This document shows, in pieces, positions 28,639-47,178 of a stretch of 48,829 bases of DNA (position 1 is its first letter; every line of letters starts with the position of its first letter). Made by a program: the position numbers and the translations under genes. The stretch is from NCBI GenBank assembly GCA_035873375.1, contig JAYWMQ010000025.1, positions 1 to 48,829 of the forward strand. The letters are read 5' to 3'. The DNA comes from Nitrospirota bacterium. GTDB lineage: Bacteria; Nitrospirota; Thermodesulfovibrionia; Thermodesulfovibrionales; JdFR-85. The notes below the pieces were generated by a model. It was not told where the DNA came from, made no database searches, and saw only the letters and a list, made by a program, of their open reading frames with translations.

Positions 28639-31290
28639 TCAACTATGGGCTTCAGCCCAGTTTTTGCCATATCCGATATCGACCCTGATGGGCACCAAAA
28701 TGACAGCGGCATTCTCCATCTCATGTTTGACAAGGTCTTTTACAGGCTGAAGCTCGTCTTCCCTTACCTCAATGACGAGTTCGTCATGGACCTGAAGGAG
28801 CATCCTGCTCTGAAGCCTTTCGGCTTTAAGCCTTTTGCTTATATTTATCATGGCCTTCTTTATGATATCGGCAGCCGTACCCTGTATGGGGGTATTCATG
28901 GCAAGCCTCTCTCCAAACGCACGCTTCTGGGCATTTGAGCTCCTCAGTTCAGGTATCTCCCGCTTTCTTCCAAAGAGGGTCCTCACATATCCAACCCTCT
29001 TTGCCTCCTCGATTATCTGCTTCACATAACGCCTGACACCGGGATGCTTCTCAAAATACTGCTCAATATAGACCCTGGCATCCTCCCTTGAGGAGCCTAT
29101 GGCCCCTGAAAGGCCAAAGGCAGACATACCATAGACGACACCGAAGTTTACCGTCTTGGCCACCCTCCGCATCTCCGGGGTCACCTGCTCCCTGGAAACG
29201 CCAAACAGTTCCGCCGCAGTCCTTGTATGAATATCTATCTCTTTCCTGAAGGCATCAATTAGCCCTTCATCCCTGCTCAGGTGTGCAAGTATCCTCAGCT
29301 CGATCTGGGAATAGTCGGCAGAGAGCAGGAAAAAACCCTTCTCGGCAATAAATGCCTGTCTTATCCTTATTCCCCACTCCCCCCTGATGGGGATATTCTG
29401 CAGATTAGGGTCACTGCTGCTGAGCCTGCCGGTGGCGGTTACGGTCTGGTTGAAAGATGTATGAATACGGCCTGTCTCCGGACTGACCAGTTTTGGAAGG
29501 GCGTCAACGTAGGTGTTTTTCAGCTTGCTGAGCGTCCTCCAGTTCAGTATTTCACCGGGCAGCTCATGCATGAGGGCAAGTTCCTCAAGAACACCAACCT
29601 CGGTGGAATATCCTGTCTTTGTCTTTTTCCCGGGCTTCAGGCCGAGGGATTCAAACAATACTGCGCCCAGTTGCCGGGGTGAGTTGATATTGAACTCCTC
29701 ACCGGCCAAAAAATATATCCTTGTCTTCAGGGCTGTCAACTCACGTTCAAGCTCTCCGGAAAGGTCGTTCAGAAGTTCAGTATCCACTTTTATACCCGCC
29801 TCCTCCATATCAGCAAGAACCCTTATCAGGGGCATCTCGATTTCAGAATAAAGACCCTCAAGCCCCTCCCCTTTCAGTTTCCCAAACAATATCCCCTCCA
29901 ACTCCATGACAACGGCGGCATTGGAAGCTGAAAACTCGGTTGCCTCTTCAATACTCACCGCTGCAAGGGAAGAGCGCTTTCCGGCAACCTCTTTAAATGT
30001 CTTGATTCTCAGGGAGAGGTACTCAAGGCTGACCTCTTCAAGGTTGTGATTCTGTTTGTTCGGATTAAGGAGGTATGAGGCAACCATGGTATCATAAAGC
30101 TCACCCTTCAGATCAATGCCTGATTTTCTGAGTACGAGGAGTTTAGTCTTTAAATCATGGCCGATCTTCCTTATTGATTCGTTCTCAAAAAGCGGCCTGA
30201 ATGCGTCAATGACTGTCCCGGCATCCAGCTGTCCGGGGGCTTCAGGGTAGTGATGGGCAATGGGCACATAATAGCCCCGGCCCTTCCCGGATGAAAAAGA
30301 GATGCCGATAACCTCTGCACTGACGGGGTGGGTGCCCGAAAATTCCACATTGAAGGCAAAGGAGTCCTCCATGGCATTTAGCAGGGCCTTGAGACGCCCT
30401 GATTCCAACACTGTCTCATAGCTGCCGGAGACATTCTGAGGAGGTATTAATTTAAGAAAAGTCCCGAATTCAAGCTCGCTGAAGAGATTGAGCAACTCCT
30501 GCCAGTCAGGCTCCCGGCGTATACACTCACTCACATCAAAATCAAGGGGCACATCCCTGTCAACTGTTGTCAGGGCATAGCTCCTGAGTATGGAATCCCT
30601 GTTCTCTGTGATGAGCTTTCTCAGCCTCTCCCGCTTTATCAGTTCAGGTTTGTCAAGAATATCATTAAGGGTGTGGTCCTTAAGAATCTCGCAGGCAGTC
30701 TTCTCACCGATACCCTTTACACCCGGGATATTGTCTGCCGTGTCACCTGTGAGGGCCATAACTTCCGGGATCCTCTCCGGGGGGATACCAAACCTCTCTA
30801 TAACATCCGCCCTGCCGATGACCCGGTCCTTTACCGGATCATATATCCGGATGTGCCCGTCAACGACCTGGAGCATATCCTTGTCACCGGAGACAATATA
30901 GGCATCAACCCCCTCAGTGGCAGACTTGACCGACAGGGTGGCAAGCACGTCATCCGCCTCATACCCCGGCACCTCGTATATCTTTATCCTGAAGGCCTGA
31001 ACAATCTTCTTTATGTAAGGCATCTGCATAATCAGCTCATCAGGGGCCGGAGGCCTCTGGGCCTTGTACTCTTCATATACCCGGTGTCTCTCTGTGGGAA
31101 GGGGTGAATCAAAGGAGACCACAATAGCGTCCGGCTCCTTTTCTCTCAGTATCTTGAGAAGCGTGTTGATAAAGCCATAGATGGCGTTGGTGGGAAACCC
31201 CTTGGAGTTGCTCAACCCCTTAATTGCGTGGTATGCGCGGTAGACATAGGAATTTCCGTCAATGAGATAGATGTTTGCGGGTTTTTTCAT
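28639..31290 (-). CDS. polA: DNA polymerase I with degenerate proofreading site
   Basis: An 883-residue protein. The 5'-3' exonuclease spans about residues 1-280 (IYLIDGNSYVYRAYHA, YEADDVLA, SGDKDMLQ, TGDTADNIPGVKGIGEKTA). The polymerase domain is intact: LSADYSQIELRILAHLS (motif A), RRVAKTVNFGVVYGMSAFG (motif B) and LQVHDELVIEV (motif C). The 3'-5' exonuclease fold is present (about 290-470), but three of its four metal-binding acids are changed relative to E. coli: FAFNVE has N314 for D355, GHDLKTK has K383 for D424, and FSASN has N457 for D501. Proofreading is therefore probably lost, as in Taq or Bacillus polymerases. It starts 27 nt after topA. Confidence 0.97.
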   Translation of the reverse strand: MKKPANIYLIDGNSYVYRAYHAIKGLSNSKGFPTNAIYGFINTLLKILREKEPDAIVVSFDSPLPTERHRVYEEYKAQRPPAPDELIMQMPYIKKIVQAFRIKIYEVPGYEADDVLATLSVKSATEGVDAYIVSGDKDMLQVVDGHIRIYDPVKDRVIGRADVIERFGIPPERIPEVMALTGDTADNIPGVKGIGEKTACEILKDHTLNDILDKPELIKRERLRKLITENRDSILRSYALTTVDRDVPLDFDVSECIRREPDWQELLNLFSELEFGTFLKLIPPQNVSGSYETVLESGRLKALLNAMEDSFAFNVEFSGTHPVSAEVIGISFSSGKGRGYYVPIAHHYPEAPGQLDAGTVIDAFRPLFENESIRKIGHDLKTKLLVLRKSGIDLKGELYDTMVASYLLNPNKQNHNLEEVSLEYLSLRIKTFKEVAGKRSSLAAVSIEEATEFSASNAAVVMELEGILFGKLKGEGLEGLYSEIEMPLIRVLADMEEAGIKVDTELLNDLSGELERELTALKTRIYFLAGEEFNINSPRQLGAVLFESLGLKPGKKTKTGYSTEVGVLEELALMHELPGEILNWRTLSKLKNTYVDALPKLVSPETGRIHTSFNQTVTATGRLSSSDPNLQNIPIRGEWGIRIRQAFIAEKGFFLLSADYSQIELRILAHLSRDEGLIDAFRKEIDIHTRTAAELFGVSREQVTPEMRRVAKTVNFGVVYGMSAFGLSGAIGSSREDARVYIEQYFEKHPGVRRYVKQIIEEAKRVGYVRTLFGRKREIPELRSSNAQKRAFGERLAMNTPIQGTAADIIKKAMINISKRLKAERLQSRMLLQVHDELVIEVREDELQPVKDLVKHEMENAAVILVPIRVDIGYGKNWAEAHS

Positions 31291-45157: not shown

Positions 45158-46084
45158 ATGATATTTATTGCTGGAGCAACAGGTTTTGTAGGCAGACACC
45201 TTACAAGGAGTTTAAGCTCCGGAGAGTATAGGGTAAGGTGCCTTGTGAGGTCTGATAAAGGGGCCGGAGCATGCACGTCCCCTGGCTTTGAGACTACTAA
45301 AGGTGACATTACCGACAGGGAGAGTTTGAAGGGAAAACTTGAAGGGGTCAGGCTTGTCACTCATCTTGTCGGGATTATCAGGGAGCAGGGAAAGAGCACT
45401 TTTGACAGGGTCCATATTGAAGGGACAAAAAACCTTGTTGATGAAGCAAAATCCTCTGATGTCGAGCACTTCTTCTTTCAGTCAGCCCTTGGTGCAGACC
45501 TCCGCTCTCCGTTTAAATACCTTCGGACAAAGGCCGAAGCTGAAGAGATAGTAAAAGACTCCGGAATCCCCTATACCATATTCCGGCCCTCGTTAATAAT
45601 AGGCCCTGGTGATGGATTTACAGAAAACATAAAGGAGCTGCTAAGACTTGGGCCTGTTGTGCCTGTGCCAGGGGATGGAAAGGCAAGGTTTCAGCCGATA
45701 TTCATTGATGACTGGGTCAGATGTTTCTTAAAGATTCTTGATGGTCAGGACTTTATAAACCGGGTTCTTGAGTTTGGAGGCCCTGAGCATCTGAGTTACA
45801 ACGAGATATTGAAACTCATAATGAAGGAGATGGGGATAAACAAACCCATTGTACATATCCCCCCCACTATCACAAAGGCCGGACTCCCCTTTCTTCAGGT
45901 CTTCAGAACACTTGGCAGGACAGTTGGAATAAAAATGCCGGATGTAAGTGCTGAGCAGATCGACCTTCTTCAGCTCGACAATATTACTGAGCTGGATTCT
46001 GTAGAACACGAGTTTGGTTTCAGGCCTGTGGGGTTTGAAGAGGCTGTAAAGAAGACACTTACGGATCAACCAGACAAGACCTGA
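45158..46084 (+). CDS. NAD(P)-binding atypical SDR (NDUFA9/epimerase-like)
   Basis: A 308-residue protein with an N-terminal Rossmann motif IFIAGATGFVGRHLTRSL and the atypical SDR features LVHLVGIIRE-like text (THLVGIIREQG), FQSALGADLRSPFKYLRTKAEAE and FRPSLIIGPGDGFTENI. The Tyr-x3-Lys pair is YLRTK. It resembles the NDUFA9-like SDRs found in bacteria as NAD(P)H-binding or quinone-related proteins. The function here is unknown. Its 3' end overlaps the convergent ruvC gene by 26 bp. Confidence 0.82.
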   Translation: MIFIAGATGFVGRHLTRSLSSGEYRVRCLVRSDKGAGACTSPGFETTKGDITDRESLKGKLEGVRLVTHLVGIIREQGKSTFDRVHIEGTKNLVDEAKSSDVEHFFFQSALGADLRSPFKYLRTKAEAEEIVKDSGIPYTIFRPSLIIGPGDGFTENIKELLRLGPVVPVPGDGKARFQPIFIDDWVRCFLKILDGQDFINRVLEFGGPEHLSYNEILKLIMKEMGINKPIVHIPPTITKAGLPFLQVFRTLGRTVGIKMPDVSAEQIDLLQLDNITELDSVEHEFGFRPVGFEEAVKKTLTDQPDKT

Positions 46085-46553
46085 AGTTCATTGTATTTAG
46101 ATGACAGATAGCCAGGGCCAGGGCATCAGCACCATCAGGAGAGGGCTCTTCGTCAAGGGAGAGGATAGTCTTTACCATCTTCTGGACCTGCCTTTTTTCA
46201 GCCCTGCCATATCCTACAACCGCTTTTTTTATCTCATTTGGACTATATTCCTGTAAAACAACCCCCTCTTCAGCCACAGCAAGCAAAATGACACCCCTTG
46301 CATGGCCAAGGTGAAGCGCTGCTTTTACTCCCTTTGCAAAAAAGACCTTCTCTATAACTGCCTGCTCCGGGTCATACAGCTTCATGATATCCCTGATGTC
46401 TTCATGCAGTTGCTTCAACCTTATATGCAGAGGCTCTTTTTTGGGGAGGGCTATTACTCCTGAACTTACATGCAAAAGGTTCTTGCGATCATCCTGCTCT
46501 ACAACTCCGTATCCGCAAAGAATACTTCCGGGGTCTATCCCTACAATCCTGAT
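46059..46553 (-). CDS. ruvC: Holliday junction resolvase RuvC, apparent ATC start
   Basis: Reading from ATC at 46553-46551 gives 165 residues beginning (M)RIVGIDPGSILCGYGVVE, in which the Asp is exactly residue 7, the catalytic Asp of RuvC. The other acids are in AVIEKVFFAKGVKAALHLGH (second) and SPDGADALALAICH (third and fourth). An in-frame TGA lies two codons upstream (46559-46557), and the only ATG/GTG/TTG candidate upstream of the core, TTG at 46475, would remove Asp7 and 26 residues. GAGGTG lies just upstream of the ATC (46559-46564 region). So either a rare ATC start is used, or there is a base change or a sequence error at this codon. It cleaves Holliday junctions with RuvAB, which are not in this window. 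Confidence 0.85.
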   Translation of the reverse strand: MRIVGIDPGSILCGYGVVEQDDRKNLLHVSSGVIALPKKEPLHIRLKQLHEDIRDIMKLYDPEQAVIEKVFFAKGVKAALHLGHARGVILLAVAEEGVVLQEYSPNEIKKAVVGYGRAEKRQVQKMVKTILSLDEEPSPDGADALALAICHLNTMNFRSCLVDP

Positions 46554-46593
46554 ATCTCACCTCGCATTCAGAAGTTACAATACTTACTCAGCG

Positions 46594-47178
46594 CTATCGC
46601 TTTCTGGGCACCTCAAAGAGTATCTCATCAACCATCTGACAGAGTATATGACCCAGGGTTATATGCACTTCCTGAACCCTCGGGGTATCAGTTGAGGCAA
46701 CCACAAAAGCATACGCGGACCTGGAAGCCATCCTGGTACCCTTTCCCCCGGTAAATGATATTGCAACCAGCTTCTTTTTCTTTGCTACATCAAGGGCCTT
46801 GTGGATGTTTTTAGATGCCCCGCTCGTACTGATGGCAATAACAATATCTCCCTCTTCAGACAGACTCCTCAACTGACGGGCAAATACTTCAGAATAATCA
46901 TAGTCATTGGCAATAGCCGTCAATACGGCAACGTCGGTATTCAGGGCAATAGCGGGCAGACCGGGTCTTTCTCTCTTAAAGCGGTTTATAAATTCCGCAG
47001 CAATATGTGAGGCATCAGTGGCAGAGCCCCCGTTGCCAAAGAGGATGAGCTTTTTCCCGTCATTGAAAGCATCGGCAATGACTTTAGAGACCTGGATTAT
47101 ATTATCGATATTCTCTTCAAAAAACTGCTTCTTTACCTCAAGGCTGTCCCGGACAGCCTTTAAAATTGATTCTTTCAT
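46594..47178 (-). CDS. gmhA: Sedoheptulose-7-phosphate isomerase-type SIS protein (GmhA/DiaA family)
   Basis: A 194-residue SIS-domain protein starting at ATG 47178, with AAGGAG upstream; a TTG one codon earlier is possible. LILFGNGGSATDASHIAAEF, VLTAIANDYDYSEVFARQL, ISTSGASKNIHKAL and the closing VQEVHITLGHILCQMVDE match GmhA, which makes D-glycero-D-manno-heptose 7-phosphate for lipopolysaccharide. DiaA, a DnaA regulator, is a close paralogue that cannot be fully excluded. Its ATG overlaps the stop of the upstream lipoprotein gene (TGATG), so translation is coupled. Confidence 0.88.
   Translation of the reverse strand: MKESILKAVRDSLEVKKQFFEENIDNIIQVSKVIADAFNDGKKLILFGNGGSATDASHIAAEFINRFKRERPGLPAIALNTDVAVLTAIANDYDYSEVFARQLRSLSEEGDIVIAISTSGASKNIHKALDVAKKKKLVAISFTGGKGTRMASRSAYAFVVASTDTPRVQEVHITLGHILCQMVDEILFEVPRKR

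Follow-up and report, generated by a model that had tools for sequence, protein, structure and literature searches.

Probable initiation at AUC of a Nitrospirota ruvC gene that lacks a canonical start codon

How is translation of ruvC initiated when its reading frame offers no canonical start codon ahead of the catalytic aspartate? The question is raised by the minus strand of the window (the whole stretch of Nitrospirota DNA analysed here, 48,829 nucleotides; features in Table 1). An earlier note on this DNA had described a ruvC frame without a canonical start before the aspartate, had placed that residue at position 7 if ATC starts, and had pointed to GAGGTG directly upstream of ATC. These descriptions hold. 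No in-frame ATG, GTG or TTG lies between the TGA at 46559-46557 and the catalytic Asp codon, the first in-frame canonical codon being TTG 46475; counted from ATC, the aspartate aligns with Asp7 of the E. coli RuvC chain 1hjr; and GAGGTG was located at 46563-46558, leaving a gap of 4 nt. The minus strand around the start reads GAATGC-GAGGTG-AGAT-ATC-AGG-ATT-GTA-GGG-ATA-GAC-CCC, the assembled sequence within 46540-46575 on this strand includes GAGGTGAGATATCAGG, and the RuvC N-terminus predicted from ATC is MR followed by IVGIDPGSILCGYGVVEQDDR. In-frame starts further upstream were rejected, as the stops at 46559-46557 and beyond block every candidate.

Table 1. Features at the 5′ end of ruvC and in its surroundings (positions in the window).
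Feature	Position	Strand	Remarks
Upstream gene, SIS-domain, GmhA-like phosphoheptose isomerase	46594..47178	minus	below NCBI family cut-offs; stop 40 nt before ATC
ATG, out of frame	46567-46565	minus	opens 8-codon ORF to TAG 46543-46541; SD -0.7, not usable
GAGGTG, putative Shine-Dalgarno for ATC	46563-46558	minus	4 nt upstream of ATC; contains the probable former GTG start
GTG, probable ancestral start	46560-46558	minus	out of frame: 7 nt, not 9 nt, before the ATC position
TGA stop, ruvC frame	46559-46557	minus	two codons before ATC; GAT at 46556 between
ruvC, Holliday junction resolvase RuvC	46059..46553	minus	read from ATC: 164 codons and TAA (46061-46059); identified by family profiles
ATC, proposed initiation codon	46553-46551	minus	a mostly hydrophobic internal codon in most family relatives
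GAC, catalytic Asp	46535-46533	minus	residue 7 counted from ATC; aligned with residue 7 of 1hjr
TTG, first in-frame canonical codon	46475-46473	minus	past ATC, 26 codons inside the protein

Read from ATC, the product scores above the cut-offs of NF000711 (173 bits, cut-off 163), TIGR00228 (142 bits, cut-off 100.65) and PF02075 (E=7e-49; 165.9 versus a cut-off of 22.2). The catalytic acidic residues align with 1hjr: Asp7, the Glu of VIEK and the acidic pair of the C-terminal PDGADA (the DGAD motif). Comparison with genomes G005 and G001 gave a dN of 0.11-0.13 with saturated dS, and on this evidence the frame is under purifying selection. Contig C52 carries intact copies of both partner genes, ruvA and ruvB (201.7 and 478.8 bits), neither interrupted by a stop. 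The sequence suggests that ruvC is an intact gene, and nothing in it suggests decay. At its 3′ end ruvC converges with an NAD-dependent epimerase-like gene (45158-46084, plus strand), the two 3′ ends overlapping by ~26 nt.

The GAGGTG motif before ATC pairs with the anti-Shine-Dalgarno (anti-SD) sequence at -10.2 kcal/mol; no 16S gene from which to read the genome's own anti-SD was found in the assembly. A Shine-Dalgarno (SD) as strong as this occurs at 1.6% of random positions, at 2.3% of sites lying 7 nt after GTGAG and at 2.6% of 7027 internal ATH codons, versus 17% of gene starts. The AUH codon of ruvC is thus preceded by a strong and well-spaced SD (4 nt), and no canonical in-frame start exists at the homologous N-terminus. 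The competing codons fare less well. The SD of TTG 46475 is weak (-3.1). GTG 46560 has none in the window, while an SD precedes the start in each of the two same-genus relatives (-6.0 and -8.9); since an SD is missing from the starts of only ~11% of genes that have a similar upstream gap, GTG 46560 is a poor start as the sequence stands. Judged by these features, ATC appears to be the best start that the present sequence offers.

Aligning ruvC from relatives at this codon, as the earlier note had proposed, set the window apart as the only sequence without a canonical start; the codon itself proved to be mostly hydrophobic in relatives (GTC, CTC, ATC), an ordinary internal codon with the start lying 9 nt upstream. 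Among 13 family relatives, nine, including both same-genus genomes, have the ruvC start three codons before the ATC position, and the others start at -5, -1 or 0 codons relative to it. Examples of the -3 group are GTG AGC TCT GTC (G005), ATG ACG CCT CTC (G001) and ATG AGA AGA ATC (G010), for which the counterpart in the window is GTG AGA T ATC. When the 12 nt before ATC were slid against the same block of the relatives, the optimum for genomes starting at -3 fell at an offset of exactly 2 (9/12 matches for G005, 8/12 for G010 and 7/12 for five others), with 2-6/12 matches at offset 0. The gmhA-ruvC spacer is short, and its MAFFT alignment did not by itself place this 2-nt gap. The N-terminal residues removed by loss of the old start are not conserved in relatives.

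The simplest history is probably that GTG 46560 lost its frame through a deletion of 2 nt; ATC would then not be a mutated ATG but, more probably, an internal Ile codon of long standing that the deletion exposed. Substitution of ATG by ATC is less parsimonious, because in the relatives the codon here is internal and hydrophobic, and their upstream start block matches at the 2-nt offset. The suggestion in the earlier note of a local mutation at the start codon calls for revision: a canonical start is missing here, but the sliding test points to a 2-nt deletion and not to a change in the ATC codon itself.

To place this 5′ end in context, ruvC was surveyed across 121 genomes of the same order, the window included. 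A canonical in-frame start upstream of the aspartate was absent only in the window and present in 120/120 others. That the use of ATC as a start is not conserved in relatives lowers the claim, yet conservation would not seem to define starts of this kind; the AUA of citZ in S. aureus is likewise lineage-specific. Canonical starts at the ATC position are common: the nearest one for ruvC falls exactly on that codon in 43/121 genomes. A non-canonical ruvC start was not found in the literature.

The gmhA-ruvC synteny recurs in relatives. In ~27/121 genomes ruvC has its nearest canonical in-frame start at a TTG within the 3′ end of gmhA (in the codons for EEILFE), often after GGAG; use of this start would make ruvC overlap gmhA by ~25 nt. 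Examples within the order are L016, L019, L046, L053, L054, L057, L141 and L143. The TTG within gmhA is also in the ruvC frame in the window, but was rejected as a start there since a TAA intervenes before ATC.

Could the missing start instead reflect an artefact or a variant that is not fixed, with a consensus from which two bases are missing or in which the start codon contains an error, and with GTG 46560 or an ATG as the real start? An indel error would be expected to produce just such a 2-nt offset from the family-wide start position. In addition, in the closest relative (G003, 94% nucleotide identity; L040, G003:C286:1) the contig breaks off within the gmhA-ruvC spacer, ~24 nt ahead of the ruvC start codon; this may be coincidental or may reflect strain variation at the site, and could hint at such variation in samples of this type. 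G002, G003 and G004 have no ruvC start in their sequence, and a scan of genome contigs for a second assembly of the species gave only the contig of G005 as a close relative.

Several observations nevertheless weigh against an artefact or variant. A scan covered 20 stretches (398 kb) of the same genome with 296 coding-potential gene calls (~300 kb). Among these calls ruvC had the strongest coding signal before the first canonical start, the one higher value coming from an ORF truncated where a stretch ends, and neither a further frame break nor a second lost start was seen in the ~300 kb of coding sequence. Comparison of the window genes with same-genus relatives revealed no indel-type faults in the window. 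The frame breaks flagged in this comparison were traced to G004, in which polA is split and the other flagged ORFs of which run into spacers. As the faults trace to G004 and the window genes are intact, the window assembly is not generally faulty. The polA of G004 (loci L066, L076 and L107) is split by two frame breaks, probably errors in that genome, while polA of the window (28639-31290, minus strand) is intact. Furthermore, the absence of an SD before GTG 46560, in contrast to both same-genus relatives, argues against two bases merely missing from the assembly with GTG as the working start. Indel errors are rare in metagenome-assembled genomes built from short reads, and the missing 16S gene suggests that this assembly is of that type. 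The assembly error that the earlier note had allowed for is thus disfavoured, by the absence of a similar fault in ~300 kb of coding sequence and by the GTG without an SD, and we regard an artefact or non-fixed variant as unlikely, although it is the foremost of the alternatives.

Entry into the ruvC frame by another route, either through a +1 frameshift after initiation at GTG 46560 or through reinitiation after termination of the 8-codon ATG ORF (46567-46541), is improbable: the two short ORFs are indeed present, each overlapping ATC, but neither the GTG nor the ATG has an SD, no recognised slippery motif is present, and the arrangement is seen in no relative. Least probable is that ruvC has been newly inactivated in this strain or is made as a truncated protein from TTG 46475, since, despite the lack of a canonical start, the remaining frame is intact and under purifying selection, and a product started at this TTG, which has a weak SD, would lack the first 26 residues, among them catalytic Asp7, and would miss the initial 25 of the 148 positions in the Pfam profile.

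A real AUC start, in which an intact ruvC lost its canonical start through a 2-nt deletion and is initiated at AUC, is in our judgement the likely explanation. Loss of the two bases from the segment that joins the former start, GTG 46560, to the conserved core would have left GTG out of frame. The ribosome would then bind GAGGTG, with the old start codon included in the binding site, and initiation with fMet-tRNA would take place at the AUC 4 nt downstream of GAGGTG, giving fMet-Arg-Ile-Val-Gly-Ile-Asp..., the usual RuvC N-terminus. Initiation at ATC, as the earlier note had proposed, remains the best reading in view of the SD at 4 nt, the native N-terminus, purifying selection and the ATA of infC; what changes is that ATC does not appear to be a mutated ATG. 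We infer that the organism does carry the deletion and initiates ruvC at AUC, with expression that is low and IF3-sensitive. The stronger proposal, that the deletion is fixed, that the old GTG became the SD of the AUC start and that RuvC is under low, IF3-sensitive translation like infC, is offered tentatively.

Gene finders usually take only ATG, GTG and TTG as starts, and so this ruvC would probably be annotated as truncated without the catalytic Asp7, or missed. If real, it would be a rare natural near-cognate start produced by an indel and not by codon substitution, in which the old start codon is reused as a ribosome-binding site; it would represent natural, indel-driven start-codon capture in a single-copy housekeeping repair gene.

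The same genome offers a precedent. Its infC (L203, G000:C37) reads AGGAGGTG-TAGTT-ATA-GCA-CAG, and the start at ATA behind AGGAGGTG indicates that near-cognate initiation is used here. ATA behind (A)GGAGGTG occupies the corresponding site in most of the 24 genomes compared from this Nitrospirota order (relatives L192-L216), 15 of which have no canonical in-frame infC start at all. Elsewhere infC starts at ATT in E. coli and at ATC in Streptomyces, and such starts are repressed by IF3 (PMC5472188); an AUA start of infC has otherwise been reported for S. aureus, in which infC, ccpN and citZ (AUA) and cvfC1 (AUU) are initiated behind extended SDs at ~10-30% of AUG levels (PMC13009471). A switch to a near-cognate start is very rare, with 1 AUU in 61,358 reconstructed AUG starts (PMC5622118). 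AUC starts are an established kind, new examples of which arise very rarely. Given that ATA already serves as the infC start in this genome, the idea that a DNA-repair enzyme is expressed in an IF3-sensitive manner is testable.

How closely does ruvC resemble these systems? Like ruvC, the near-cognate infC starts combine an AUH codon with a strong SD that has a GGTG core 4-5 nt upstream and with no canonical start in place. However, the infC start is conserved across the order and is autoregulated where studied, whereas that of ruvC was observed in a single genome and would not be expected to feed back on IF3. The S. aureus starts of citZ (AUA, NCTC 8325 lineage), cvfC1 (AUU) and ccpN (AUA) share with ruvC a non-canonical codon and an extended SD (PMC13009471), and citZ shares its restriction to one lineage. 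They differ in having been demonstrated by ribosome profiling and reporters, while the ruvC start is proposed from sequence, and only for ruvC is an indel the likely cause. A further housekeeping gene shares with ruvC a near-cognate start deduced from homology, although the gene and the codon differ. The frame-shifted lambda cI (PMC6397469) resembles ruvC in that a 5′ indel displaces the canonical start and a nearby non-canonical codon takes over, but this rescue involved a phage gene, an ACA codon and a laboratory circuit.
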